Shown one piece after another: positions 6,838 to 43,182 of a stretch of DNA of 44,473 nucleotides. Source of the stretch: a virus; IMG/VR virus record IMGVR_UViG_3300029923_000036, positions 1 to 44,473 of that record; one strand, written 5' to 3'. The notes under the pieces were generated by a model. The model was not told the origin of the DNA. It saw only the letters and a list, made by a program, of their open reading frames with translations, and searched no databases. The translations under genes were made by a program, and so were the position numbers. Within the stretch, counting starts at the first letter, position 1, and the number at the start of each line of letters is the position of its first letter.

Positions 6838-8484
6838 AAATATTTAAAATAAATTTTTGAGTTATTTGTTTCTGTTTGATTACCTTCTTAATATATTATA
6901 TGCTGGAAAATACTAAATGATACATTTATTCGTATTAATTTGTTATTAATTAATAAAGAACTTTTCGACAAATTAATACTATATTATTCTGCTTATAATA
7001 TATGTTCAATAGTACGCATATTATAGGTTTGTTTAGTTATATCATTCGTATTATATTAATATGATGTAATACAGTTTGATTTGATGTATAATAAATTAAT
7101 GTATAAGTACATGATTTGAGTTGTTTTATACCCTATTCTCAATTATATGTATAGTATTATCAATTATGTTCTCAATTGGTGTGATTTGTTTATTGATAAT
7201 GATTGAGAATAACTGTATTACTTGGTTTAAGATATTCGATTCTAACGTGTATTCTCAATTAAGTTATAGGTATTAGTAAGTAATTGTGCTATTGATATGC
7301 TATTTAAATTTATATTCTGCTTAGAATTGAAGTTGATATTGGATGTTTAGTATTCGTGTTTTGATATTGTTTTGATCTGCTGAATGTGATATTATGTTAG
7401 TGTTCATTAGTTGAATATAGATATTGGATTGATTATATATGTAGTTATTAAAACTATGTGTTAGTGTATTTATAGTTATGTTATGGGTTTGTTTATATGT
7501 GTTATATAGTTACTGTTATCATGTTAAGTAGATGTTATTAATGGATTGTAATTAATAGTTATTATTCATTTAATGCAATTATATTTAGTTATTGCATATT
7601 AAGTTATACAGTATTGATTACTATTGTATGTGATACAATAATGTTGTTCTTAATTATATTGAATAATAGTTTATTGAGTGTGATTATATATAGTTCAATA
7701 GTATTGTATTCTATTGAATGTTAATCAATTATATCTATTACAATTAGATTGTATACAACTGAATTAAGTGATTTGCAGTGGGACAAAACTTGACCACGAT
7801 TATTCAAGCCAACATTAATATAATAGTTCGTGTTTTAAAAATTCATCATTCAAAACTGCATCACCTAATCAGCAACAGCCAACAAGTCAAGAGTAGATAA
7901 AAGATTGATTTTAATAGTAGTTATTGATTACTTGGATCAAATTTACTGCTATATTTATTATACTAATCAGTATAGTTTTATTGCACTAAATTGTTATTTA
8001 GTTTAATTAATTTGAAAGCGTTGGTATCACTAGGTTTGCAGGTTTTGAAGTGCTAAAAAGTAGATTATTTATGATATTTGATTGGATATAATTCATTGCC
8101 TAGTAAGTACATAGGTATAGTGGGGGCATGTTTTACATTATTAGTTCAATATCTGAACACAATAGTTGCTCTATCACATCTACAAACGCATTTTTCAGAA
8201 ACCCTATCGATTAACCAAAACACGAACATTATCTCCAAACCTCATTCGTCCCATGTTTCGATGTAACTCCCTATCTACCCCATTTCACTCTAAAATTTAC
8301 CATCAAAAATACCCTAAAATACCCTCAATTCACACTACTAAAACCTTCAAACCCAGTAACCTCAACACCTAAGACGATTAACACATCATAACTTCAAATA
8401 ACTAGTTATCAACTCAATATATAAAACCACTTCAAACCCTTACTATGACTAACCTACAACCAATTATTAATATACATAAAAAGT
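6838..8484. other. Long gene-free region with a strand-composition switch
   Basis: About 1.65 kb without a credible gene. To about 8.1 kb the plus strand is G/T-rich (7441-7500 has 13 G and 1 C), apart from a short A/C-rich patch near 7790-7880; from about 8.17 kb it becomes A/C-rich. It holds one copy of the 18-nt element (7090-7107, AATAAATTAATGTATAAG) and many short TTGATATTG-like words. No tRNA or terminator is visible inside. It could be a replication-related or structural region (inference). Confidence 0.5.
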
Positions 8485-13748: not shown

Positions 13749-15434
13749 TTATTTTCTCCTTTCTTGATATTTACTCCATTTTGATTGTTTTGATTCTCTT
13801 GATTTTTTAGTAAAATCTATAGTTTTTTTAACATTTTCTTCTGATTTTTGTTCTTTTTCAGTATTTTCTTGTTGTTTTTCTTGATTTTCATTAATTAATA
13901 GTTCATTTTCTTTTTGAACAATATTCCCTTGATTGTCCAATTCCATAAACTCTTTATCTTTTTCTATTAATGGCTTTAAATAATCAATAACCATTTTAGA
14001 ATCTAAATATAATGTTTTCCCATGATATATTTCATCTGCAACTGCAATAAATTCTCTTTGTTTCTTTTGTCTAATTGCTAATGATGCCAATTCTCCTTCT
14101 CCTAATATAGTTAATGCACTAGCAGTATTGGGAAAATAAAAACAAATTTGATTCCCTAAATTTCCCTTTACATCTCCAGACATATGAGTAAGTGAACCTC
14201 TTTGAGTACAGAGAATACAATAAACTCCACTTGATCTACCTTCTCTAGCAAGCTTCCACATTAAAGCATTACATTTTTCTTTATCTTTTTTCTCATTATC
14301 ATTTTCTTCAGCACCATTTACTGCAAAACTTGCGACCTCATCAATACAAAAGTATATAAGTGGTAACTTTATATCATGACAATCATTATATTCATAAACA
14401 TTGGTGATGCTTCCACTATCATCAACTTCATCAAACATTTTATTACGTCTTGAAACTTCTCTGCTTAGATACCTTAATTCTTTTAAAGCTGATTTAGTAT
14501 CCTTAGCGTAATATTTGCAGTGTTTTATATTTTTAAACATTCTAAGATCTTGCTTATCACTCAGCATACAAATTGCTAATTGAACTAAACTTTCGTCATT
14601 ACTTAATACTAAATTTAATAATCCCATTATCATAGATATAGTTTTTCCAGAACCTGCTGAACCTCCGATAAGAACATTTGGGCTGGTTTTAAAATTTAAT
14701 ATAATAGCCTTATAAGCATGTGTCATTCCATTATATAACTCCCAAGGTTTAACTTTAATTGGTTCATATTTTTCTTTATCAGGAACTTTAGTATTCATTA
14801 TTTCTATACTTGTTTGATTTTTAGTATCATCAAAATGTAGGGAGCAAATTCCAAATATTTTATTTAAATCAACTATATTTTCTTCCAATACATCATAACT
14901 AAGTCCATTTGGAATAGAAATTTTAAAGTTATAACCTATTAGCACTTTGTTTCCCTTTTTATCTAGTTTAGTGGGATGATATATTTTTTCAGATTCATCT
15001 AACTTGAATGTTTCACCATTACCATTCCTTTTTTTAGAGTCAGCAAATGCACTATACCAATTGAATTTGATTGAGTCTATTTCATTAATATCTAATCCTT
15101 GCAAATGACATCTCATGTATATACTTGATTTAGTAGAACTATATTCTGCTATTACTTCACCTCTATAAACTACCCCGATTGCAGGTAACAACTTTCTAAA
15201 ATCATTTAAACTTTTTCCGTAAGGCATTACTACTATTACATCAAATCCATAATGTTTTATAAATATATCTTCTAGTACATAGTAGTTTGCTTTTTTATTA
15301 AAATCACTATAAGTTTTATTTGTTGGTACATCTTTACTTAAATCAATACTATTAACTCTTTCCATTAATATTTTCCATTTATTTTTTATGTTGTTTTTAA
15401 CTTGATGCTCTGCAAAATAACTACTTAACTCCAT
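13749..15434 (-). CDS. FtsK/SpoIIIE-like DNA translocase
   Basis: 561 residues. Walker A GGSAGSGKT at 257-265, Walker B with acid IYFCIDE at 360-366, and the downstream AREGRSSGVY and LCTQR (sensor-like) segments are those of FtsK/SpoIIIE ATPases. About 240 residues precede the motor, without membrane helices, so this is not a typical FtsK; it looks like the plasmid/phage type (TcpA/TraB relatives), which pumps double-stranded DNA. The C-terminus is a Glu/Lys/Gln-rich coil ending in a basic cluster. The small membrane protein just upstream (2-nt gap) may supply the membrane anchor. Role: DNA transfer or late segregation of the element (inference). Confidence 0.85.
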   Translation of the reverse strand: MELSSYFAEHQVKNNIKNKWKILMERVNSIDLSKDVPTNKTYSDFNKKANYYVLEDIFIKHYGFDVIVVMPYGKSLNDFRKLLPAIGVVYRGEVIAEYSSTKSSIYMRCHLQGLDINEIDSIKFNWYSAFADSKKRNGNGETFKLDESEKIYHPTKLDKKGNKVLIGYNFKISIPNGLSYDVLEENIVDLNKIFGICSLHFDDTKNQTSIEIMNTKVPDKEKYEPIKVKPWELYNGMTHAYKAIILNFKTSPNVLIGGSAGSGKTISMIMGLLNLVLSNDESLVQLAICMLSDKQDLRMFKNIKHCKYYAKDTKSALKELRYLSREVSRRNKMFDEVDDSGSITNVYEYNDCHDIKLPLIYFCIDEVASFAVNGAEENDNEKKDKEKCNALMWKLAREGRSSGVYCILCTQRGSLTHMSGDVKGNLGNQICFYFPNTASALTILGEGELASLAIRQKKQREFIAVADEIYHGKTLYLDSKMVIDYLKPLIEKDKEFMELDNQGNIVQKENELLINENQEKQQENTEKEQKSEENVKKTIDFTKKSRESKQSKWSKYQERRK

Positions 15435-16421: not shown

Positions 16422-17537
16422 CTATTTTCCAAGATTCATATATTTATCTCTTATAGAAGATGATTTCCTTTTTGTACGGTCTATAGTTGTAGATGTCTTA
16501 GATTGAATACTTTTAGTATTATTAACCTTATTCATAATACTAAAATCAATCTCTATATCGTCCTTAATGCTATCCATACTTTGTTTTTCAACTTCTTTTT
16601 TCTTGTCCATTATACTTTTGTATGATGTTTTTAACTCTGTAATAATATTATTATTAAAGCTTGTACCTGCGGAAACGATAATATTTGTTTCATCATCCCA
16701 AACTGAGTCATGTGTAAAAGTAGCATAACCAAATAGATCCCTAATTAATTCTAAATTAATATCCTGCTTATGTTTTTTATTCAAAATCATTCCATCTACT
16801 TTTGGATTCTTTAATGGTTCTACATATATACTTCTATTAACTGCATCAGATAATCCATTACCAAAATCATCATTGGCAAATTCCAATATTGTTGTAAATC
16901 CACTAGTTGTCAGTAAAACTTCTAATTCATTTTCATCTAAATTACCTTCTGCTGTAATATGATCGTAGTTTAATAATCTGGACATAGTGATTGAAAAATC
17001 TCTATTAATATCCATTTTATTCTCTCTTGAATTATTATCAAGTAATTGAATATTAGTAATAAAACCCTTACCATCATTATAAGCATCTCTTAATTGTTCT
17101 AAACTTTGAATTGCATTACCTTGCATTCCTAAGTCTTCATTAGCTCTTGGTAATACGGCTACTACATTAGATATCTTACCTTCTTCTCCATATATTTCAC
17201 CAAAAGCTTCTGCAATTATACCACCCATTGTGCCTCCAGTTCCACCTGATAATGTATATACAAAGTAATATATCAATGAATTTGCATATCTTTCATAAAT
17301 TCTTCTACAAATCTTATCGGCTATATCATCTTGGGTAATTACATTAATGGCATATTGTCTATTTTTAGCCATGCCTTTTAGTCCATCAATATGATATTTA
17401 TTTTTATTATCTGTATCAATTGTTAGCAAATCCTCAAGACTTGTATTTACATAGAAAGCGTTACACCCTTCTTTTTCAAGTTCTCTAACTATATTTCCTC
17501 CACCTTGACCGATTGCAATAAAAACTACGTTTTCCAC
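16422..17537 (-). CDS. tubZ: TubZ, plasmid/phage tubulin-like GTPase
   Basis: 371 residues. GTP-binding motifs of the tubulin/FtsZ fold are present: IGQGGGN (9-15), the G-box LSGGTGGTMGG (96-106) and a T7-like catalytic loop GNLDENE (197-203). The C-terminal tail (about 320-371) is Lys/Ser/Thr-rich, as in TubZ where it contacts TubR-DNA. TubZ forms treadmilling filaments that move the TubR-bound centromere and so segregate large Bacillus plasmids and clostridial phage c-st. The start is GTG 17537, two bases after the tubR stop, so translation is coupled. The gene order tubR-tubZ with tubY divergent matches that locus type. Confidence 0.92.
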   Translation of the reverse strand: MENVVFIAIGQGGGNIVRELEKEGCNAFYVNTSLEDLLTIDTDNKNKYHIDGLKGMAKNRQYAINVITQDDIADKICRRIYERYANSLIYYFVYTLSGGTGGTMGGIIAEAFGEIYGEEGKISNVVAVLPRANEDLGMQGNAIQSLEQLRDAYNDGKGFITNIQLLDNNSRENKMDINRDFSITMSRLLNYDHITAEGNLDENELEVLLTTSGFTTILEFANDDFGNGLSDAVNRSIYVEPLKNPKVDGMILNKKHKQDINLELIRDLFGYATFTHDSVWDDETNIIVSAGTSFNNNIITELKTSYKSIMDKKKEVEKQSMDSIKDDIEIDFSIMNKVNNTKSIQSKTSTTIDRTKRKSSSIRDKYMNLGK

Positions 17538-19282: not shown

Positions 19283-20047
19283 ATGTACGGAATATATAAT
19301 ATTTATAGTAATGGTAAGCTAATTTATATTGGAAAAACAATTAATTTTTATACAAGATTAAAAACTCATATTTCACAACAACCTTGGAGTAATGAGATAA
19401 CACACATTTCTGTTGCTAAATGCAAAACTAAAGTAGATATGGATTTATATGAAAAGTATTATATCAATAAACTAAATCCTAAATATAATAAAGCAATTGT
19501 ATACAATGAAACACCAACTTTTGCAGTAGAAGAATTAAACTTTCAAAGTTTTACTCTTGAAAAATTCTTAAAAATTAACGAACCAAAAAATCTGAGAAAC
19601 AGCAATGTTAATAAAAGCTATGAGAAACGTAAATTAGAAATATCAGAATTTCTAAAAACTTCAGTTGAAATAAAAGATGGTATAAAAATAGACTTTTCAA
19701 ACTCCAATAATACATTGTATCATTGGTGGAATACACTTAAAACAGATATTAATTTTTTACACATAGACGGAGATATTCAATTCTTTAAGCAAATTTTAAA
19801 AGGTGTCAAAGAAAATAAGTATGAATTTATTTTTGAAAATAGTGAAGAAATTTTTAGAAACCTTGATTTATATAGCTTAGGATTGAGAATTGATAGTTAT
19901 TCAATTAGTAATAAGAGAATCAGTAAAGGATTTACTGGAGTTAATTTCATTTTAGGAATGAATATGAATCCAAGAACAAAAGATGTTACTGTAAGAGTAA
20001 ATAGATATATGCTAGAAGAATATTTTGATAAGTATTTTATCTATTAA
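19283..20047 (+). CDS. GIY-YIG endonuclease (1)
   Basis: 254 residues. The N-terminal domain (1-75) carries YGIYNIYSNGKLIYIGKT (GIY at 3-5, YIG at 15-17), followed by R26 (TRLKTH) and an E-x-x-Y-I-N helix (DLYEKYYINKLNP), all core GIY-YIG positions. The remaining 180 residues show no known DNA-binding repeat. GIY-YIG enzymes of this kind are usually homing endonucleases. The start ATG 19283 has only GGGAG upstream. The gene lies between tubY and the replication origin; just after it is an inverted pair of iteron-like sequences that may end its transcript. Confidence 0.75.
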   Translation: MYGIYNIYSNGKLIYIGKTINFYTRLKTHISQQPWSNEITHISVAKCKTKVDMDLYEKYYINKLNPKYNKAIVYNETPTFAVEELNFQSFTLEKFLKINEPKNLRNSNVNKSYEKRKLEISEFLKTSVEIKDGIKIDFSNSNNTLYHWWNTLKTDINFLHIDGDIQFFKQILKGVKENKYEFIFENSEEIFRNLDLYSLGLRIDSYSISNKRISKGFTGVNFILGMNMNPRTKDVTVRVNRYMLEEYFDKYFIY

Positions 20048-21948: not shown

Positions 21949-21970
21949 ATCAATAGGGATAAATTTTGAG

Positions 21971-22067
21971 GTCGCTCCTCATTATTGATAAGGCTATTTT
22001 ATCAATCGGTAGCTTTCCCTACTTGCAATAGATTGGTAAATAAATTAAAATATAAGGAGATTGATAA
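21971..22067 (+). promoter_or_regulatory. Structured 5' leader with loop complementary to the ribosome binding site
   Basis: Hairpin TGAGG/CCTCA is followed by a 7-bp stem AAGGCTA (21990-21996) / TAGCTTT (22010-22016). Its loop contains TTATCAATC (21999-22007), exactly complementary over 9 nt to GATTGATAA (22059-22067), which lies between AAGGAG and ATG 22069. A second, partly matching copy, GATTGGTAA, is at 22031-22039. An alternative hairpin ATTGATAA (21984-21991) / TTATCAAT (21999-22006) competes. The same design occurs before the gene at 34628. Confidence 0.6.
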
Positions 22068-22068
22068 A

Positions 22069-22980
22069 ATGATAGGAATTTACAAAATTACAAATAAGAT
22101 TAACGGGAGAGCGTACATAGGACAAAGTAAGAATATAGGAACACGATGGAGCAATCATATAAACAGACTTGAATGTAAAAAACACGAAAACAAAGAACTG
22201 CAAAAGGGTTTTAATAATTTTGGATACTTTAATTTCTCCTTTGAAATTATCGAAGAGTGTCAAGAAAAAGAATTATTATCTGTGGAACTAAAATATATTA
22301 ACCTTTATCAAGGCAATAGTTATAATATAACAAGTAATTCTAATAGTACTCTTTATGTTGATAATTTTAAATTTAATAAACATATAAATATTAATTTAAA
22401 TTATAATATTTTATCTCAAAGAGTAATTTTAACAGCATTAAAGAAATATTATGAAAGAAATACTAAAGAAATAAATATAGCATGTAGTGATATAATGAAA
22501 GAATATGATTTTGATCACTCGATATATTATAAAGGTATTCAAAGAATATATGATGAAATATCGCATTGTGAATTATTTGAACAAGTATTAATTGAAAATT
22601 CATCTATTTTTAATTTGAAATTTAATGAGCAATATTACTTTTTAGCTAAATTGTTTTATGATAATAATATAATAGACAGTACAAAGAATTTTATAAGACG
22701 TGGTTCGTTGAATTTATATGTAAAGATATTATGTAATAAGTTAAAGTTATATTATCATTTGGAAGATTTTAAAAGAGAATACAATATAAATGAATTACCT
22801 TCATATAAACATTTTTCAAACATTAAAAGAATATTATTAATACCAATGATTGAAGAAATAGAACTAGTATTAAATAAAAATATAATTATCGATGAACAAA
22901 AAGAAAGAGGAAAGATTGTAGGATTTAATATTATTACATCAAATACTCTACAAGAAACGCATTCTATACCCTCAAATTAA
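22069..22980 (+). CDS. GIY-YIG endonuclease (2)
   Basis: 304 residues from ATG 22069; the folded leader and AAGGAG decide the start. The GIY-YIG domain covers about residues 1-90: IGIYKITNKINGRAYIGQS, then NIGTRWSNHI and LLSVELKYINLYQ (catalytic Arg and Glu). Beyond it come about 200 Asn/Ile/Lys-rich residues with no recognised DNA-binding motif. A free-standing homing endonuclease beside the rep gene is likely. It has its own promoter (21920) and a leader that can mask its ribosome binding site, so it is probably kept at low or conditional expression. Confidence 0.8.
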   Translation: MIGIYKITNKINGRAYIGQSKNIGTRWSNHINRLECKKHENKELQKGFNNFGYFNFSFEIIEECQEKELLSVELKYINLYQGNSYNITSNSNSTLYVDNFKFNKHININLNYNILSQRVILTALKKYYERNTKEINIACSDIMKEYDFDHSIYYKGIQRIYDEISHCELFEQVLIENSSIFNLKFNEQYYFLAKLFYDNNIIDSTKNFIRRGSLNLYVKILCNKLKLYYHLEDFKREYNINELPSYKHFSNIKRILLIPMIEEIELVLNKNIIIDEQKERGKIVGFNIITSNTLQETHSIPSN

Positions 22981-24475: not shown

Positions 24476-25360
24476 ATGAATAAAACAGAATACAAATTAC
24501 ATTATAATAATTTTGAAGAATTAAAAGTAAAAGGTGTTTATTTGATAAAGAATAAAGATAATGATAAATTAAAAATAGGTATAACCAATAATTTAATGAG
24601 AAGGTTAAGTGAAATAAAAAAGAGTTTTCAATTTTGTGGAGTAATTCCAGAGTTAGATATAGAATGTTATATTGAATATAAACATAATCTAGAATTAGAA
24701 CAATATTTACATAAAGAATTAAAGGAATATAATTATCAGAATGAATGGTTTAGTATTGATAATATAGATATAGTATTAGAAAAATTAAATGATTTTAAAT
24801 ATGAAAAAGAACTCAAAGAAATTAAACCATTAATTAAAGAAAATTTTAATATACCTGAAGAAAATAATATAGATAAATTTATGGTAAAATCAATGAAATA
24901 CTATTTATATAACCATTATGAGTGGCATGACTGTAAGAATTATACAAGATATAGTATTTATATAAAATGTAATGGAGACGAGTGGACGGCATGTAGTATG
25001 ATAGATGATATACAAGGAGATATATTTCATGATTGGAATTATTTCACGCATTGTTATGAAAAAGAACGTTATAATAAATTTGATGCTAGTGATGAATTAA
25101 TAGATAAATTCAAAGAGTTAAATACTAACGCAATAATAAAAACAGAAAATGGAAATATAAATAGTTTAGAAGATCACTTTATACAAAAGTATAATAATTA
25201 TTTATCAAATACATTAACCGATATTAAAGATTATATAAATAATACAGACGTTGAAATAGAGAATACATATGATATATCATTGAAAAGAGTTAAATTAGAA
25301 GAAAAAATTGAATATCTAATTAATAGAATGAAAACCATTAAAGAAAACTTAAGCATGTAA
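24476..25360 (+). CDS. GIY-YIG-like protein of T5orf172/MUG113 type (3)
   Basis: 294 residues. Residues 18-95 have the T5orf172 variant of the GIY-YIG fold: GVYLIKNKDNDKLKIGITN, then MRRLSEIKKS and LELEQYLHKELKEY, ending NEWFSI. The YIG tyrosine is replaced by KIG, as usual in this subfamily. The C-terminal half has a tryptophan/tyrosine-rich region (about 140-190) and a coiled-coil-like end. T5orf172 domains occur in phage proteins of uncertain role, some with DNA-binding domains. ATG 24476 follows AAAAGGAG. Confidence 0.72.
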   Translation: MNKTEYKLHYNNFEELKVKGVYLIKNKDNDKLKIGITNNLMRRLSEIKKSFQFCGVIPELDIECYIEYKHNLELEQYLHKELKEYNYQNEWFSIDNIDIVLEKLNDFKYEKELKEIKPLIKENFNIPEENNIDKFMVKSMKYYLYNHYEWHDCKNYTRYSIYIKCNGDEWTACSMIDDIQGDIFHDWNYFTHCYEKERYNKFDASDELIDKFKELNTNAIIKTENGNINSLEDHFIQKYNNYLSNTLTDIKDYINNTDVEIENTYDISLKRVKLEEKIEYLINRMKTIKENLSM

Positions 25361-26976: not shown

Positions 26977-28623
26977 ATGTCTAAACAATTATCTAATCAG
27001 AAGAATATACTTAAAATACATACAAAAAGACTAAGAAAAAATAATTGGAGTTTAGACTTAGCATTGGAAGAAGCTAAAAAAAATAAAGAAGTTATTCAAC
27101 TAGGAGATAGCCAAACTCTAAGATTTATTAATGAAATATTGGAAATAGAAAATCAAGATGAACAAATTAACAAAATAAAAGAAGAAATAAAGGAACTTGA
27201 AAAATTAGATAACTCCATAGAAAATAGAAAAAAAATAAAAGAATTAAATAAAAAGAAAAATGGATTGAAATTTAATCAAGATTATTTATGTTTGGTTATA
27301 GATAAAATTGGAGATTTTGATAAATGTAATAGAAGATGTAGTTTCTTTGTAAATGGGAAACAATTTGTAAGATTATTAGGAACTACAGGTGGAATAAAAA
27401 ACGAAACTATAGTATACGTTAGTAGAGATGTATTTGACCAATTACATAAAAAATTGGATAATGGTAGAGATTTAGATAAACCTTTAGTTCCAGCTAAATT
27501 AGAAGCATATAAAGCATTATCTTGTAGTATGAGTGTTCCAGTTAGAGATCCAAAAAGCATATTGGTAGTAGATGATTGCATAACTCATTTCAAAGAAGAT
27601 ATAATACAAATAGATGATTCTAAAGGAGAAAGACCAGTTTTAGAAATAATAAAAGATTTTGATGTTGAATTAATTGATAGTGATGGTTATGGTCTTATAT
27701 CTCCACAATTAAGTAAGTTATGGGGAGTAGATATTAAAGAATGTGAATTAAAAGACAAATTTGTACCAACAGGTTTTTGTATTAGAAATGCTTTTACTAA
27801 GGGAATGGTTTTTACATTTGATTTTAAGAGATTTGCAAAACAAATAGCACATAAAAAAATAGTTAAAGATGTGTGGGGGCAAGAGAGAAATATAAATAAA
27901 GTTGATTTAATATTAACTACTTCCATGCTTAAATTATGGGACAGTTATGAATCATTAGAACACTATTTAGCTTGTTGCAAAGAAAATGAATGGACTTTTA
28001 GTATTACAAAAATGTGTCCAAAAGAATTAGAAAATGAAAGAACATTAAATTATCAATTTTTACAGTCTTTTAAACTTAATGATGAAGATATTAAAGAATT
28101 AATTAAACCAACTGTAGATAGTATCAAAGACAGTTTAACAATGGACTATGCAAAAACATTACTATTCCTAAAGGGAACTAAATTGAATGATAAAAACTCA
28201 TTTGTTGGAGAAGATGATTATGTTAAAGCGTTAATGGTTGATGAAGAATTATTAAATGATCCTTATATACAAGATAGAGTATATAATATGCGAAAGAAAC
28301 GTATTCAAGATGCAAAAGTTGGTGTTTTAAATATGCAAGGATGCTATGCTATAATATCTGGCGACCCCTATTCACTATGTCAAAGTATATTTGGTTTAGA
28401 TGTAACAGGATTACTAAAAGCCGATGAATTATATAGTAAATATTGGTCAGATAAGAACAGTAAAGAAATAATAGCTTTTAGAGCACCTATGACATGTCAT
28501 AATAATATAAGAAAATTACAAGTAACATCTACAGAAGAAATGCAACAATGGTATAAGTATATGAAAACATGCTTGATACTAAATTCATGGGACACCACAA
28601 CTCATGCTGAGAACGGTGCCTGA
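26977..28623 (+). CDS. YonO/QDE-1-like RNA polymerase, N-terminal part
   Basis: 548 residues ending at UGA 28621-28623. It matches the bacterial and phage proteins annotated as RNA-dependent RNA polymerase, relatives of SPbeta YonO and fungal QDE-1, single-chain enzymes with two double-psi barrels. Signature stretches include KGMVFTFDFKRFAK (about 275), VDLILTTSMLKLWDSYESLE, ISGDPYSLCQSIFGLDVTG (about 460-480), FRAPMTCHNNIRK and WDTTTHAENGA at the very end. The catalytic DxDxD motif is missing from this frame but is encoded at once in the +1 frame: skipping the U of UGA gives NGA-DKDSDAF. So the reading frame breaks inside the active site. ATG 26977 follows GTGAGGTGACGG. Confidence 0.85.
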   Translation: MSKQLSNQKNILKIHTKRLRKNNWSLDLALEEAKKNKEVIQLGDSQTLRFINEILEIENQDEQINKIKEEIKELEKLDNSIENRKKIKELNKKKNGLKFNQDYLCLVIDKIGDFDKCNRRCSFFVNGKQFVRLLGTTGGIKNETIVYVSRDVFDQLHKKLDNGRDLDKPLVPAKLEAYKALSCSMSVPVRDPKSILVVDDCITHFKEDIIQIDDSKGERPVLEIIKDFDVELIDSDGYGLISPQLSKLWGVDIKECELKDKFVPTGFCIRNAFTKGMVFTFDFKRFAKQIAHKKIVKDVWGQERNINKVDLILTTSMLKLWDSYESLEHYLACCKENEWTFSITKMCPKELENERTLNYQFLQSFKLNDEDIKELIKPTVDSIKDSLTMDYAKTLLFLKGTKLNDKNSFVGEDDYVKALMVDEELLNDPYIQDRVYNMRKKRIQDAKVGVLNMQGCYAIISGDPYSLCQSIFGLDVTGLLKADELYSKYWSDKNSKEIIAFRAPMTCHNNIRKLQVTSTEEMQQWYKYMKTCLILNSWDTTTHAENGA

Positions 28624-29767
28624 CAAAGATTCAGATGCATTTATTACCACAGATAATCCAGTTCTATTGAGAACGTATGAAAAATTGTTGGCTATATTTT
28701 GTGTTCAAAAATCAGCACAAAAAATTAAAGTCACTGAAAAAAGTCTTATTAAAGCAAACAAAGATGGTTTCGGAGATGATATAGGTACAACTACAAATAG
28801 AATAACTGAAATGTTTGATATATTAGCTAAGTTTAAAGAAGACTCATTAGAATATAAGGAATTAATGTATCGTATAATGTGTGGACAACATTATCAACAA
28901 TGTGCGATAGATAAAATCAAGGGCATAAAATCTAATCCTATGCCTAAAGAATGGTATGATTCAAGAGTAAATAGGATTAAAGTAGATACTAATACAGGAG
29001 AAATATTGGATAATGAAGAAATTATAAAATTAAAAGAGTTTAATACAAAAATTGTAGCTGATAAAAAACCATATTTCTTTATATACATATATCCTCAATT
29101 AAAAAATTCATATGATAAATTTATAAAAGAAACTGAAAATAAATGTATTACTCAGTTTGGAATTTCATTAAATGAATTATTCAAAAAGAAGAATAAAAAT
29201 GAGATAGAAGAAAGTTTCATAAAATATTACAACTTAAAAAATCCAGTTAGTAATAATAATTGTGTAATGAATAAAATATGCAGAGAAATAGAAAGAGAGT
29301 TTAAAGGAATTAAAAACAAATTAAACAAAACAAAGTTTGATTATACTGTTTTAAAAACAGATGAAAAATACACAAAGAATACTTATAATAAAATAAAAAT
29401 CATATATGAAGAATACATGATTGAGTTGTCACAATTTAAAATGTTGTCTAAAAAGAATAGAGTAGGTAAAGAAGATAAAAACGATGGAATGATAATATTA
29501 AAACAAAACTTCAAAGAAAAATGTCAAGAAGAATGTATTAATAAAGATGAACTTTGCAATATATTAGTTGATATGTGTTATAATACTGAAAAATCTAAAC
29601 AATTCGTTTGGGATATGTGTGGTAATCAAATAATAAATAATTTATTACATAAAAATAATTTCATTATTAACTATCCTGAATTAGATAATATTAATGGAGA
29701 TGTAGAATTTGGTGGAGAAAACTTTATTCTAAATACTATTGAAATAAAGAAAGGAGAAGATAAATAA
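28604..29767 (+). CDS. YonO/QDE-1-like RNA polymerase, C-terminal part (+1 frame)
   Basis: 387 residues as an open frame, overlapping the N-terminal part by 20 nt. It opens with the catalytic motif (PDKDSDAF, Asp residues at 7, 9 and 11; DKDGD in relatives), then TTDNPVLLRTYEK, FGDDIGTTTNRITEMFDIL, YRIMCGQHYQQCAIDKIKG and MPKEWYDSR, all in the order of an intact polymerase. The nominal ATG 28604 has no ribosome binding site (ACCACAACTC precedes it), so independent translation is unlikely. Most likely the part is joined by +1 frameshifting at GCC UGA C, or the gene is broken. Its end overlaps the next gene by 1 nt (TAATG). Confidence 0.82.
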   Translation: MLRTVPDKDSDAFITTDNPVLLRTYEKLLAIFCVQKSAQKIKVTEKSLIKANKDGFGDDIGTTTNRITEMFDILAKFKEDSLEYKELMYRIMCGQHYQQCAIDKIKGIKSNPMPKEWYDSRVNRIKVDTNTGEILDNEEIIKLKEFNTKIVADKKPYFFIYIYPQLKNSYDKFIKETENKCITQFGISLNELFKKKNKNEIEESFIKYYNLKNPVSNNNCVMNKICREIEREFKGIKNKLNKTKFDYTVLKTDEKYTKNTYNKIKIIYEEYMIELSQFKMLSKKNRVGKEDKNDGMIILKQNFKEKCQEECINKDELCNILVDMCYNTEKSKQFVWDMCGNQIINNLLHKNNFIINYPELDNINGDVEFGGENFILNTIEIKKGEDK

Positions 29768-30555
29768 TGAAATTAGAATTAAATGAAAATAGTAAAATAA
29801 AAACAATATTAGAAGAAGGTATAGTATCAGATAAACCAAGTGAAACTATTAACTTATTGGCTAGACATTATAATAAGCAGAGTATGAATCAAGAGCAAAT
29901 AGTACAAGCAATAAATAAATTTATGATAAAAAATGATTCTAGTAAGTATAATAGTGTTACTTGGGAAGATTTAGTCGAAGGAATAGTAAAGACAGTTATA
30001 AAAAATAATAATGATTTAATAGAGGTAAAAGAAGTTAAGATGACTAAATCAGAAATAGAATATATTAAATCATTAGAAAACGAGAAAATGCAAAAATTAA
30101 TCTTTACATATTTAGTGTATGCTAAAATATTCAATCAAATAAATTCTAAAAATAAGAATTGGGTTAAAGGAGAATGTAGGAATGAAGTATTTAAAGACGC
30201 AGATATAAAAGAGACTGGGAAGGAACAATTAAAAACAATACATAAGTTAGTTAGTCTTGAAGTATTAAAGATAGCTAAAAATATAACAAATAATAGTGTT
30301 AATTTAGATAATGTAATTAATGATAATAGTGAAGCAGAGTTAATAATAAACGATTTTAGAGAATTAGGATTACAATGGCTTAGATATATAGGTATAAAAG
30401 GTGTGTGTAGTTGTAGTGAATGTGGAACGCTATTTAAAAAGAAGTCTCCTAATAGTAAACAAAAAGTTTGCAACATATGTGCAAAAAATATAAAGAATGA
30501 ACAGAATAAAGGTTATTATCATAATTTAGGAAAATGTAAAACAACGTCTAAGTAA
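29767..30555 (+). CDS. Zinc-finger protein coupled to the RNA polymerase gene, 262 aa
   Basis: The start ATG shares a base with the stop of the polymerase C-part (TAATG) and follows AAAGGAG, so the two are translationally coupled. Residues 1-200 are helical and Lys/Asn/Glu-rich with no motif I know. The C-terminus carries a zinc ribbon: C-S-C-S-E-C (about 215-220), then KQKVCNICAKNIKN with a C-x2-C, and a final CKT. A polymerase-associated nucleic acid-binding factor is a reasonable inference from the coupling, not from homology. Confidence 0.65.
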   Translation: MKLELNENSKIKTILEEGIVSDKPSETINLLARHYNKQSMNQEQIVQAINKFMIKNDSSKYNSVTWEDLVEGIVKTVIKNNNDLIEVKEVKMTKSEIEYIKSLENEKMQKLIFTYLVYAKIFNQINSKNKNWVKGECRNEVFKDADIKETGKEQLKTIHKLVSLEVLKIAKNITNNSVNLDNVINDNSEAELIINDFRELGLQWLRYIGIKGVCSCSECGTLFKKKSPNSKQKVCNICAKNIKNEQNKGYYHNLGKCKTTSK

Positions 30556-32601: not shown

Positions 32602-34083
32602 ATGGGAGGAAAAAAGAATAAAGAAAATGAAATTGTAATAAGTTTAAATGGAAATCAATCACAAGAAGTAGTAGGCAGTAATATGAGCATTTCATATTTA
32701 TCAGATACAGGTAGAAAATGTGTTTTAGTTGAATTAGGAATGATACAAAATAATGATATGGCTGACGAATATATACTAAATAAGGAAATGTTAAATAATA
32801 TTCCTATTAAAGAGTCAGATTATTGTTTTATGTTTCATTTACATTGTGACCATATTGGGCTGTTCCCGTCGCTATCTTCAATGGGATTTAAAGGCAGGAT
32901 AATAACAACAAAAACCAATGCAATATTATCTAAACCAATGTTAAAAGATTGCATTAAGATTCATGTAAAAAATTGTGAGTATTTAAGGGAGAATAAAGAT
33001 AAATTTAAAAAGAAAATAAAAGGAAAAGTTAAAGAATTATTTGAAGAAAAAGACTTAGATAATGTAATGAGTATGATGGACGTTTATGAATTAGATAACA
33101 TACATCATTTAGATGATTATTTATCTTTTAGATTTACAAATAACTCACATATTATTGGTGCTACACAATTAGAGATTTTCATAAAGAAATTTGGAACAAA
33201 TGTTGTAAAAAAGATTTGTATTACAAGTGACTTAGGAAATACAGATAATTATTCATATACATATTTTACAGAACCAACAATTCCAGTGTCTAGTTCAAAT
33301 ATTCTTTTCGTAGAAAGTACATATGGATTAGGAGATAGAAATTTCAACAAGAGAATTTGTATAGAAGAAAGAAAACAATTGGAAAAAGATATATTAGGAT
33401 TTGTTAATTACAATCATTCATGTATGATACCATGTTTTGCTTTATCTAGGCTTAGCAATATGATGTGTTGGCTCTATGATACATTTAAAGATAGATGGGA
33501 CATGTCTAAGCCAATTGTAATAGCAACTAATCTAGGTAAAAAAATAAATGATAAAATGTATGAAGTTTTGGATAATGAAGACTTGGCTTATTGGGATGAA
33601 GTTATGACTTGGAAAGCTTTTAAATTCATAAATGACAACAAGAGTTGTGAAGCGTTTGTTAATTCTAAACCAAAAAGCTATTTAGTTTTAAGTTCTAGTG
33701 GGATGATTTCGGGTGGGTTTAGTAATCTATTTGTTAATCAAATGTTACAAGATTCTCATAATGGAATATTATTTTGTGGATACTGCTCGCCAAATACAAT
33801 AGGTGGTCAATTATTAGATGATAGTACAGATACAGTTATTGTTGATGGCAAGACATTAAAAAAGAGATGTATTGTGAAAAGATATTATTCATTTAGTAGC
33901 CATGCATCACAAAAAGATATTATAAATTATATCAAACAATGTGATTGTCAAAAAGTAATATTACAACATGGTTCAAATGATGCAAAAGAAGAATTAAAGA
34001 AATTATCTGAAATAGAATTAAGCAAAATGAACAGAACAACAAAAGTTATTTCATCGTATAAGGATATGCAAATGACTTTATAA
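32602..34083 (+). CDS. Metallo-beta-lactamase fold beta-CASP nuclease
   Basis: 493 residues. Motif 2 is HLHCDHIG (79-86; HxHxDH), followed by NNSHIIGATQLE (motif 3 His) and ITSDLGN (motif 4 Asp), then the beta-CASP region: STYG, ALSRL, SSSGMISGG and FCGYCSPNTIGGQLL. The C-terminal SSHASQKD and LQHGSN give motifs B/C. This is the layout of RNase J / CPSF-73-like RNA nucleases, of ordinary length and without a KH domain. Role: phage RNA processing or decay (inference). A dyad ACCGTATATATCGGT (32567-32581) lies just before the gene and may be an operator. ATG 32602 follows GAGGGAG. Confidence 0.85.
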   Translation: MGGKKNKENEIVISLNGNQSQEVVGSNMSISYLSDTGRKCVLVELGMIQNNDMADEYILNKEMLNNIPIKESDYCFMFHLHCDHIGLFPSLSSMGFKGRIITTKTNAILSKPMLKDCIKIHVKNCEYLRENKDKFKKKIKGKVKELFEEKDLDNVMSMMDVYELDNIHHLDDYLSFRFTNNSHIIGATQLEIFIKKFGTNVVKKICITSDLGNTDNYSYTYFTEPTIPVSSSNILFVESTYGLGDRNFNKRICIEERKQLEKDILGFVNYNHSCMIPCFALSRLSNMMCWLYDTFKDRWDMSKPIVIATNLGKKINDKMYEVLDNEDLAYWDEVMTWKAFKFINDNKSCEAFVNSKPKSYLVLSSSGMISGGFSNLFVNQMLQDSHNGILFCGYCSPNTIGGQLLDDSTDTVIVDGKTLKKRCIVKRYYSFSSHASQKDIINYIKQCDCQKVILQHGSNDAKEELKKLSEIELSKMNRTTKVISSYKDMQMTL

Positions 34084-34514: not shown

Positions 34515-34624
34515 AGTAGAGACAAATTAAGGAGTCATGACCTTAATTAAAATAGCTTATCTCAATCGGCTATGTCTCTATTTTATTAATGATTGAGAAA
34601 TAAATTATAGAAAGAAGATTGAGA
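34515..34624 (+). promoter_or_regulatory. Structured 5' leader with loop complementary to the ribosome binding site
   Basis: A three-way junction: TAGAGAC (34517-34523) / GTCTCTA (34574-34580), AATTAAGG (34525-34532) / CCTTAATT (34541-34548), and ATAGC (34552-34556) / GCTAT (34569-34573). The last loop contains TCTCAATC (34560-34567), fully complementary to GATTGAGA at 34591-34598 and again at 34617-34624, directly before ATG 34628. Compared with the leader at 21971-22067, loop and target differ by a compensatory A-T to C-G change. Confidence 0.62.
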
Positions 34625-34627
34625 AAA

Positions 34628-36058
34628 ATGAAAAAGATAAGTAGAAAAATAATTTTAGATAATTTACCTAGAATTAAAGAAAATAGAAATAAAGAACGTA
34701 TAGATTGGAGAAATTCGATTGGATATACAATAAATTTTATATATGCTGAGGTAGAAGGTTCAGTTTATATAAAACAATATAATAATGACAAAAGAGATTT
34801 GGTTATTGTATATAAAGGAGAAGATTTTCATATTACATGTGATAACCTTGCAAAATGTGCTTTTGGAAAAATTTTAGGATTAATGACAAAAAACTTTAAA
34901 GTTGAAATAGGTACAAGATTTAAAGATAATAAAAGAGATATAACCATAACAGACAGAGAATATAGAAAAGATAAAAGGGGACAAAATTGGAAATGGTATA
35001 AATACACTTGCAACACATGTAACTGGACAGAAGGTTGGGTTGAAGAAGGAAATTTGCAAAGAGGTGATAATTGTTCTTGTTGTCGTGGTCTTGTTGTTAT
35101 AGAAGGAATAAACGATATACCTACAACTGCTCCTTGGTTAATTCCTTATTTTCAAGGTGGTTATAATGAGGCTAAATTGTACACTAAATGGGGAACTGGA
35201 AACTCCAATAATTTTGGAGGTTATATAAATCCTGTTTGTCCAGATTGTATAAGAATCAAAGATAAAAAAATTAAAATTAGAGATATATATACAAATAAAT
35301 CAATAGGATGTATCTGTAGTGATGGTCAGAGTTTTCCTAATAAGACAATGTTTAATATTTTAGAACAATTAGGAATAGATTTTATACCAGAATACAATCC
35401 AGAATGGATTAAACCTAAACGTTATGATTTTTATATACCTTCAATAAATAAAATAATAGAAATGGATGGACAATTTCATAAAAATAACAATCAAATGAAT
35501 GGACAAACTTCCAAAGAAAGTAATGAGTTAGATGAGTATAAAGATAATTTAGCAAGAGAACGTGATATAGAGGTTATTAGAATTGATTGTGATTATCCTA
35601 ACATGGAAACTAGATTTGAATATATAAAAAATAATGTAATTCATAATAGTAGATTAAATAATCTATTTGATTTGAGTAAAATAGACTGGTTTAAATGTAA
35701 CGAATTTGCTTTAAGTAATCTAGTTAAAGTAGCTTGTGACTTATGGAATAAAGGAATATATAGTATAAAAGGAATATCTAGTATTATGCATATAAATGTT
35801 ACAACAACTAGAACTTATTTAAAGAATGGAACAGAAAATAGTTGGTGCAATTACAATGGTGAAAAAGAACAAAATAAAAATATTAAACAAATGGCAAGTA
35901 AAATATCTAAACCCATAAAATGTTTAACTGATAATAAATCATTTAAAAGTATAGTTGAAGCATCAAAATATTATAATATGGGAGAATCAACTATAAGCAT
36001 GGTTTGTGGTGGGAAAAGAAAAACTGCGAAAGGTATGGTCTTTGAATATGAAATGTGA
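34628..36058 (+). CDS. Vsr/EDxHD-like homing endonuclease
   Basis: 476 residues from ATG 34628 (AAAGAAG and the leader set the start). The central region has two Cys pairs of zinc-ribbon type (YTCNTCNW, NCSCCRG, and later VCPDC), then a nuclease core RYDFYIPSINKIIEMDGQFH (about 265-284) and ARERDIEVIRIDCDYP. The E-x-D-G-x-x-H pattern is that of Vsr-like endonucleases, including the EDxHD homing enzyme family (I-Bth0305I type). The C-terminus carries an HTH-like segment and a NUMOD-like repeat (SFKSIVEASKYYNMGESTIS), typical of DNA-binding tails in homing endonucleases. It overlaps the next gene by 11 nt. Confidence 0.72.
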   Translation: MKKISRKIILDNLPRIKENRNKERIDWRNSIGYTINFIYAEVEGSVYIKQYNNDKRDLVIVYKGEDFHITCDNLAKCAFGKILGLMTKNFKVEIGTRFKDNKRDITITDREYRKDKRGQNWKWYKYTCNTCNWTEGWVEEGNLQRGDNCSCCRGLVVIEGINDIPTTAPWLIPYFQGGYNEAKLYTKWGTGNSNNFGGYINPVCPDCIRIKDKKIKIRDIYTNKSIGCICSDGQSFPNKTMFNILEQLGIDFIPEYNPEWIKPKRYDFYIPSINKIIEMDGQFHKNNNQMNGQTSKESNELDEYKDNLARERDIEVIRIDCDYPNMETRFEYIKNNVIHNSRLNNLFDLSKIDWFKCNEFALSNLVKVACDLWNKGIYSIKGISSIMHINVTTTRTYLKNGTENSWCNYNGEKEQNKNIKQMASKISKPIKCLTDNKSFKSIVEASKYYNMGESTISMVCGGKRKTAKGMVFEYEM

Positions 36059-41919: not shown

Positions 41920-41976
41920 AATAAATTAAAAATAAATAAGCTATGTGATATTAGCAATTCAAGGAGGAATTTGATT

Positions 41977-43182
41977 ATGTTATTAAGTAAAAAAGTAGAA
42001 GTAAATTGGACGAACTATAATAGAAAATGGTATGAGAGTAAGGGATATATATTTACTAGAAAAGAAGATGTATTTGAGGTAAAAGTTGAAGATTTAACAT
42101 TAAGTTCGCAAGCATTAGTACGTGCGAAATGTGATTATTGTGATGAAATATATGAAACAACATATCAAAAATATAACAACAATAGAGATAGATGTATAGT
42201 TAAAAAAGACGCTTGTAAGAAGCATAAATATGAGAAGCTTAAAGAAGCTAATATGATTAAGTATGGAGTAGAGAATGTAAAACAATTAGAATCTTCTAAA
42301 GAAAAGGCTAGACAAACTCAATTAGATAGATATGGTGCTACAAATGTTATGAAATTAGATAAATACAAAGATAAATTAAAAGATACTATGATATCAAAAT
42401 ATGGTGTAGAGAATCCAATGTATGTAAATGAATTTAAGGATAAAATCAAAGAAACTAATTTAGAACGTTATGGAACTGAATGCAGTATGAATAATGAAGA
42501 GATACGGAGTAAAATAATACAAAATAATGTTGAAAAATACGGAGTAGAATACTATAGTCAAACAGATGAATGTAAAGATAAGGTTAAACAAACTAGTTTA
42601 GATAAGTTTGGAAAAGAATATTATATGCAGACAGACGAATGGAAAGATAAAATAATAGAAACTTGCAATGATAAATATGGAGTAGATAATATATCTCAGA
42701 CTCAAGATGTTAAAAATAAAAAATCAGAATCATTTTATAAAAATGGAACAGTTAAAACATCTAATCAACAAAGATATTTGTGGAAATTACTAGGTGGAGA
42801 ATTAAACTATAGCAATGAAACTCCTAGTTTAGATATTGCTTTTCCTAATGAAAAAATTTATTTAGAGTTTAATGGATCAGGGCATGATTTATGTGTAAAA
42901 ATGGGAAATATGACTCAATCACAACATGATAATAGAGAACGTGCAAGATATTATTATATGAAAAAGCGAGGTTGGAAAGGTATATTTATAAATTCATCTA
43001 GAGATTATTTGCCTACTGATGAAATAATATTAGACGAAATTAATAAAGCTAAAGAATGGTTTAGCATAGAAGGTAAAAATCATAGTCACTATAATATTGA
43101 TATTGGGATATTAATAAATGATGAAATGTATGGAAAGTTAAGAAAAATAAAAGAAAAAGACTTAGAAGTTGCTAATTTTTAG
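41977..43182 (+). CDS. Repeat-containing EDxHD/Vsr-like endonuclease
   Basis: 401 residues from ATG 41977 (AAGGAGG; the TTG 6 nt earlier is less likely). An N-terminal zinc-binding unit (AKCDYCDEIYE, and KKDACKKH) is followed by about seven imperfect repeats of 20-30 residues (K-Y-G-V-E-N/Y-x-x-Q-x-x-x-x-K-x-K), about 80-250, as in DUF7487-type phage proteins. The C-terminal domain has SLDIAFPNEKIYLEFNGSGH (about 280-300; E-F-x-G-x-x-H) and MKKRGWKGIFINSS, a Vsr-like nuclease core like that of the gene at 34628. A free-standing homing endonuclease is likely; the repeats would grip a long DNA target. Confidence 0.7.
   Translation: MLLSKKVEVNWTNYNRKWYESKGYIFTRKEDVFEVKVEDLTLSSQALVRAKCDYCDEIYETTYQKYNNNRDRCIVKKDACKKHKYEKLKEANMIKYGVENVKQLESSKEKARQTQLDRYGATNVMKLDKYKDKLKDTMISKYGVENPMYVNEFKDKIKETNLERYGTECSMNNEEIRSKIIQNNVEKYGVEYYSQTDECKDKVKQTSLDKFGKEYYMQTDEWKDKIIETCNDKYGVDNISQTQDVKNKKSESFYKNGTVKTSNQQRYLWKLLGGELNYSNETPSLDIAFPNEKIYLEFNGSGHDLCVKMGNMTQSQHDNRERARYYYMKKRGWKGIFINSSRDYLPTDEIILDEINKAKEWFSIEGKNHSHYNIDIGILINDEMYGKLRKIKEKDLEVANF

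Follow-up and report, generated by a model that had tools for sequence, protein, structure and literature searches.

The viral DNA analysed here (IMG/VR record IMGVR_UViG_3300029923_000036, positions 1 to 44,473; its 44,473 nucleotides are called the window) carries a gene for a YonO/QDE-1-like RNA polymerase that is broken by one base inside the catalytic loop, directly before the aspartate triad. The break is real. On balance, it is probably a recent frameshift that abolishes, or all but abolishes, the function of the late RNA polymerase in one temperate phage, of which no other allele was seen.

The N-terminal part of the gene opens at ATG 26977 on the plus strand and runs for 548 codons (26977–28623), ending in WDTTTHAENGA and the stop TGA at 28621–28623, just 5′ of the catalytic Asp triad. 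The C-terminal part lies in the next frame of the same strand (28622–29767, 381 residues); it reads DKDSDAFITTDN... from GAC 28622, stays open until 29767 and has the catalytic DKDSD as its first residues. An earlier note on this DNA had placed a frame break at the DxDxD motif, and the coordinates of the open reading frames (ORFs) confirm it: the catalytic loop NGx-DxDxD occupies 28612–28636, and the one-base break falls inside GCCT at 28618–28621. As that note also saw, the site is no homopolymer and the base directly 3′ of the stop is C (28624). The alignment to intact homologues that it proposed finds NGx-DxDxD uninterrupted, with the end of the N part and the start of the C part adjacent; the break is therefore exactly one extra base, and, as had been claimed, restoring the frame loses no residue. 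The restored reading of both parts gives a 929-residue product, and a single open frame for one active chain exists only with a frame shift. Decoding of UGA 28621 as an amino acid was rejected, because the zero frame reaches a further stop 10 codons on.

The N part matches the Pfam RdRP family PF05183 (E=9.6e-10, 38.2 bits against a cut-off of 23.8), whereas a six-frame search of the four records that carry this allele reached 20.4 bits, under the cut-off, and the 929-residue product matched no Pfam family at E≤1 and, by phmmer, no PDB sequence. Because the Pfam runs were uneven, membership was judged on fold and homologues. By tblastn the N part matched 34 phage records, including polymerases of Bacillus and Enterocloster phages, and the SPBc2 record, which encodes YonO, at 26.5% (E=1e-18). 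A model of the read-through product, built from 56 aligned sequences, has a mean predicted local distance difference test (pLDDT) score of 91.6, and its best solved structure is maize RDR2 (Z 24.9 over 630 residues, root-mean-square deviation 5.0), with fungal QDE-1 at Z 21.4 and phage P32 gp64 next at Z 14.1. The model thus has the RDR2/QDE-1 fold. Residues D549, D551 and D553 (in DKDSD, 28622–28636) are invariant across the 56 sequences and are off-frame from the N part; modelled residues 545–553 form a loop between a helix (541–544) and a strand (554–558). As modelled, the read-through product is a single-chain, two-barrel RNA polymerase of the YonO/QDE-1/RDR2 type, so the resemblance to intact YonO/QDE-1-like polymerases pointed out in the earlier note is borne out by homologues, fold and DxDxD. 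According to passages of PMC5467207, the homologous phage-encoded YonO of SPbeta transcribes late genes; YonO is one chain, whereas the gene in the window is broken at the catalytic loop. An intact second polymerase copy was rejected, as each of the four records, which may be incomplete, gave one match. Among plasmids, the N part matched 4 Bacillus records and the DNA around the break matched none.

Public protein families divide at the same place. The N part falls in phrog_25339 (E=2.7e-207) and the C part in phrog_35857 (E=2.8e-78), families that contain the N part alone or the C part alone, and two top viral structure models in BFVD, A0A8S5SEF1 and A0A8S5PL59, are short (563 and 382 residues). 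These one-part families and short models perhaps reflect genes interrupted at the motif and annotated as two proteins.

The same allele is present in three further IMG/VR contigs (3300031722_000011, 3300031521_000095 and 3300030294_000026), each with 100% identity to the N part and 0 differences from the window over 11,644 base pairs. One of them, 103,443 base pairs long, equals window 7816–44473 with zero mismatches over 36,658 base pairs. A pattern scan of viral contigs that permitted 2–6 bases between the flanks matched those three contigs only; scans of this kind may leave out the window's own record. One sister contig starts at window position 7816 and two start at 7788, the window extending 7.8 kb further left; the interval 7788–7816 is a candidate integration site, variable junction or assembly branch.

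The survey of relatives drew on viral contigs (five protein scans and a pattern scan), on one genome scan and on six phage records; together these yielded 271 loci, which a 600-base key sorted into 175 distinct cores. Among the 175, L135 and L136 are partial copies of the window virus counted apart, so that truly distinct cores number 173, and two scans kept the best 80 of 241 and the best 80 of 303 relatives, so the survey is not exhaustive. The motif was called clean when one unbroken frame ran from 10 residues before it to 15 after. By this measure the motif is unbroken in 149 of the 175 distinct cores and not spanned in 1 (L106). The remaining 25 differ: the window virus accounts for 3, inserts in the motif for 17, downstream inserts for 2 (L067 and L119) and stops off the motif, within the match, for 3. 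The last are a normal C-terminal end (L069), the edge of a match that falls short of the motif (L115) and an internal TAG (L132). In L106, L115 and L119 the motif is not covered on both sides; L119 begins at the motif, with its upstream side uncovered; its insert lies some 95 codons further downstream. Among the 175 distinct cores, the window virus alone has a short break at the motif. Conservation of GCC UGA C, a check set out in the earlier note, thus fails, no surveyed relative having the same break. That note had also said that a programmed site would be overturned by an indel specific to one strain, the gene family being otherwise intact. The survey comes close to this outcome, with only the window virus broken in an intact family, although the nearest relatives (best 80 of 241) share at most 55% identity and an intact allele of the window virus itself was therefore not seen. 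Sequence comparison shows that such lesions occur in other viruses of the family, since one (L264) appears to carry a frameshift elsewhere in the gene, in the C-terminal part at about residues 684–734. It was found separately, because whole-gene break detection overlooks a frameshift when the BLAST pieces on its two sides overlap over more than 20 residues.

We propose that a single-base insertion shifted the frame inside the catalytic loop of the phage's own polymerase gene. Translation would end at UGA 28621, with the Asp triad due at the next residue. The normal product would then be a 548-residue polymerase that lacks catalytic aspartates, and few ribosomes, if any, would get past the stop, at a rate that is low and not programmed. 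Such a lesion would be young, since neither the remainder of the gene nor any other comparable gene is split. The C part retains 34 of 34 columns conserved at ≥95% and the N part 55 of 58 (74 intact relatives aligned), and both values lie within the range of intact relatives. In the absence of constraint, the chance of acquiring no stop and no loss at those columns would be 4.9% at 2% neutral divergence, an estimate that counts substitutions only, at equal rates; the break is therefore either recent or the C part is still in use. When the 103-kb contig was compared with five relatives, the polymerase alone among 18 homologous regions was split by frame, and it was split against all five. This comparison covers regions homologous in the five relatives, the left 7.8 kb of the window having no matched region, and it detects splits between matched pieces only, many matches being partial. 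General prophage decay was rejected on this count of 1 in 18. A second region flagged as split (77427–79362 in relative G001) was also rejected, because both pieces match the same query start and represent a repeated domain.

Judged by its gene content, the element resembles an ordinary temperate phage in other respects, and it may be a phage-plasmid. The 103-kb contig has family matches to integrase, tail and virion structural proteins, and the window has head protease, RepL-like, FtsK-like and TubZ-like genes. An FtsK/SpoIIIE-like gene (13749–15434) close to a tubulin-like gene (TubZ-like, 16422–17537; PF00091, with a weak PhuZ match) recalls plasmid-like prophages. It probably survives as a lysogen or a prophage of the plasmid-like kind, a state in which the late polymerase would be dispensable, and persistence of this kind without a late polymerase is plausible.

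Several observations weigh against a disabled gene. Deletion of yonO in SPbeta gave zero plaques, according to passages of PMC5467207, so that a dead polymerase should cost; yet four assembled records contain this virus. No decay is visible in the C part. The break sits exactly at the catalytic motif, 8 of 929 codons, a placement expected by chance about 1% of the time, although this was noticed post hoc. Termination at UGA C is weak, and in yeast antizyme a +1 shift is known at an Ala codon followed by UGA C (passages of PMC5009743). Even so, the polymerase being dead in this element, which the earlier note held as its fallback, is the reading that fits best, with no stimulatory signal found among those tested and the break confined to one virus.

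The strongest competitor, which we regard as unlikely but worth weighing, is that programmed or compensatory +1 frameshifting at GCC UGA C yields full-length polymerase. A near-cognate tRNA-Ala may sit on GCC while the next tRNA is taken one base on at the weak UGA C stop. This would suit the stop followed by C, the full conservation of the C part and the modelling of the 929-residue product, with high confidence, as a complete polymerase. GCC is also rare here (12 of 289 Ala codons) and perhaps poorly read, a rarity that fits equally a codon created by the insertion itself. Passages of PMC5009743 report a +1 shift at the yeast antizyme site GCG_UGA_C, whose intrinsic shiftiness in yeast is 37%; this site resembles the window in having an Ala codon and then UGA C, whereas the related Ty3 site is GCG AGU U. 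Both yeast sites are eukaryotic and, in the same passages, tied to particular yeast tRNAs and stimulators; the mechanism is known from yeast, and those passages do not demonstrate it in bacteria. A slipped tRNA on GCC would be expected to meet a C-C mismatch.

Comparison with bacterial release factor 2 (RF2; prfB) also speaks against this competitor. The two sites share UGA C (28621–28624), but in the window the shift codon is GCC_U in place of CUU_U, by far the most efficient RF2 shift-site variant tested in passages of PMC5009743; there is no internal Shine–Dalgarno sequence, and relatives do not conserve the site. The best upstream pairing is −4.0 kcal/mol, a value equalled by 16% of the gene's windows, against −10.3 kcal/mol for the AGGGGG motif of RF2, which agrees with the earlier remark that an upstream Shine–Dalgarno of the RF2 kind is lacking. 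No downstream stimulatory structure was found relative to shuffled sequence (z +0.5 and +1.1), and upstream folding was only weakly better than shuffled (z −1.3). A suppressor or frameshift tRNA was rejected, as neither the window nor the 103-kb contig gave a tRNA gene. No other core among the 175 has the break. The earlier proposal that UGA C marks a programmed, release-factor-sensing switch is thus left without support, by the confinement of the break to one virus and the lack of stimulators. A programmed +1 shift is not supported; low-level compensatory shifting at GCC UGA C is possible.

In its strong form, which we hold to be less likely again, active polymerase would arise only through the +1 shift at GCC UGA C, by a near-cognate Ala tRNA without re-pairing, and late transcription would depend on the level of release factor. 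If true, the yeast antizyme site would have a counterpart in bacteria, the catalytic loop would be kept unlike the target of intron endonucleases, and a programmed shift would amount to a new kind of phage control.

A different account concerns where the extra base came from. Inserts of 251–1445 bases lie within the NGx-DxDxD motif in 17 of the 175 distinct cores. With edges set by the rule that the last base of the exon is U and that of the intron G, 15 of the 17 could be placed at three points: within codon 548 (L062), after codon 549 (L015, L063, L066, L070, L073 and L084) and after codon 551 (L005, L006, L009, L078, L101, L120, L123 and L287); L285 and L286 were not placed. The Rfam group I intron model RF00028 matched 4 of 6 loci tried, one over its gathering score of 50 (L062, 85.6 bits) and three under it (L084, L070 and L017, at 37.4, 30.6 and 25.4 bits), and matched L005 and L009 not at all, even at E≤0.5; no Rfam family at gathering score matched L005, L006 or L009. 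The motif inserts look like group I introns, and 9 of the 17 contain an ORF of at least 70 residues; judged by eye, these look mostly like HNH homing endonucleases and, in L285, like a GIY-YIG one. By sequence comparison, the catalytic loop of YonO-like polymerases appears to be an intron hotspot, with three or more points within about 25 bases. Around the motif insert of L286 and L300, the edges yield no plain DxDxD. A second recurrent insert place lies about 95 codons 3′ of the motif (L005, L006, L066, L067, L119, L120, L123 and L286). An intron at the break in the window was rejected, the extra sequence being one base only, and an Rfam scan of the window at gathering score gave no match, hence no group I intron between the two parts.

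Intron-borne endonucleases cut near their own insertion points, and the extra base might be a homing-endonuclease scar, created or retained because it abolishes cleavage of the loop; we consider this improbable. The extra base lies 0–2 bases from the insertion point of the L062 group I intron, in the same codon 548, among the three points resolved for 15 of the 17 distinct relatives with motif inserts. The window also carries five endonuclease-like genes of GIY-YIG, T5orf172, HNH or homing families within 24 kb (19283–20047, 21985–22980, 24476–25360, 34619–36058 and 41971–43182). Passages of PMC11620839 describe escape mutants of a phage polymerase gene, substitutions next to the point where an intron inserts. 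A frameshift would be a costly escape route. A related endonuclease in the window was rejected, since at E≤1e-3 the motif-insert ORFs resemble none of those in the window. The break has no direct repeats, and one base near three points within 25 bases may be chance. A scar would explain the origin of the extra base and is compatible with a disabled gene.

Slightly more doubtful still is a polymerase of two chains, in which ribosomes that stop at UGA 28621 would re-initiate upstream in the C-part frame, and the resulting chains of 548 and 383–387 residues would assemble. Two start codons overlap the N ORF in that frame, ATG at 28604–28606 (17 bases 5′ of the UGA) and GTG at 28616–28618 (5 bases 5′), and the C part is intact, with the break modelled in a loop and not in a strand. 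However, neither start, both on the plus strand, has a usable Shine–Dalgarno sequence: predicted anti-Shine–Dalgarno pairing is −3.9 kcal/mol for the ATG, as expected from the earlier statement that it lacks a ribosome binding site, and −2.7 kcal/mol for the GTG, compared with −5.8 to −13.9 kcal/mol at 13 reference starts in the window. The fold further implies that the catalytic barrel would be divided beside its metal-binding loop, and overlapping frames at the motif occur in no other surveyed core.

An assembly or sequencing artefact is very improbable: the four records have a single public collection as their source, and perhaps samples or a method in common, but they agree exactly at the break while differing in length and end points, and the site is not a homopolymer, so that a sequencing slip, already thought less likely in the earlier note, was rejected and an assembly error is unlikely.

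Disrupted phage polymerase ORFs have been reported before; the present case is a single-base break in the YonO-like lineage. Polymerases of the Enterocloster phages PMBT24, CB473P1, CB457P1 and CB473P3 are 39–40% identical over the N part and have the motif NGx-DFDGD. In PMBT24 and CB473P1 the motif is contiguous, and in CB457P1 and CB473P3 it is split after DFD by inserts of 531 and 433 base pairs, as against one base in the window. In crAss-like phages of the zeta group, passages of PMC7886860 describe RNA polymerase ORFs with frameshifts and stops inside DxDxD and suggest unknown expression mechanisms; there the polymerase is far more divergent and has many breaks and introns, whereas the window has one single-base break. 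If the break is a plain lesion, a phage can spread or persist with a broken late polymerase, and split polymerase ORFs call for careful annotation. The more lasting use of the survey may be its indication that group I-like inserts sit repeatedly, at differing points, in the catalytic Asp codons, so that several mobile elements seemingly contest a single loop of about 25 bases.

Downstream of the polymerase, the next gene (29767–30555, plus strand) has a homologue in five of the five relatives compared, at 32–37% identity (21952–22719 in G001). A few genes 3′ of the polymerase lies a beta-CASP metallo-nuclease gene (32602–34083), with a homologue in one of those five relatives (G004).

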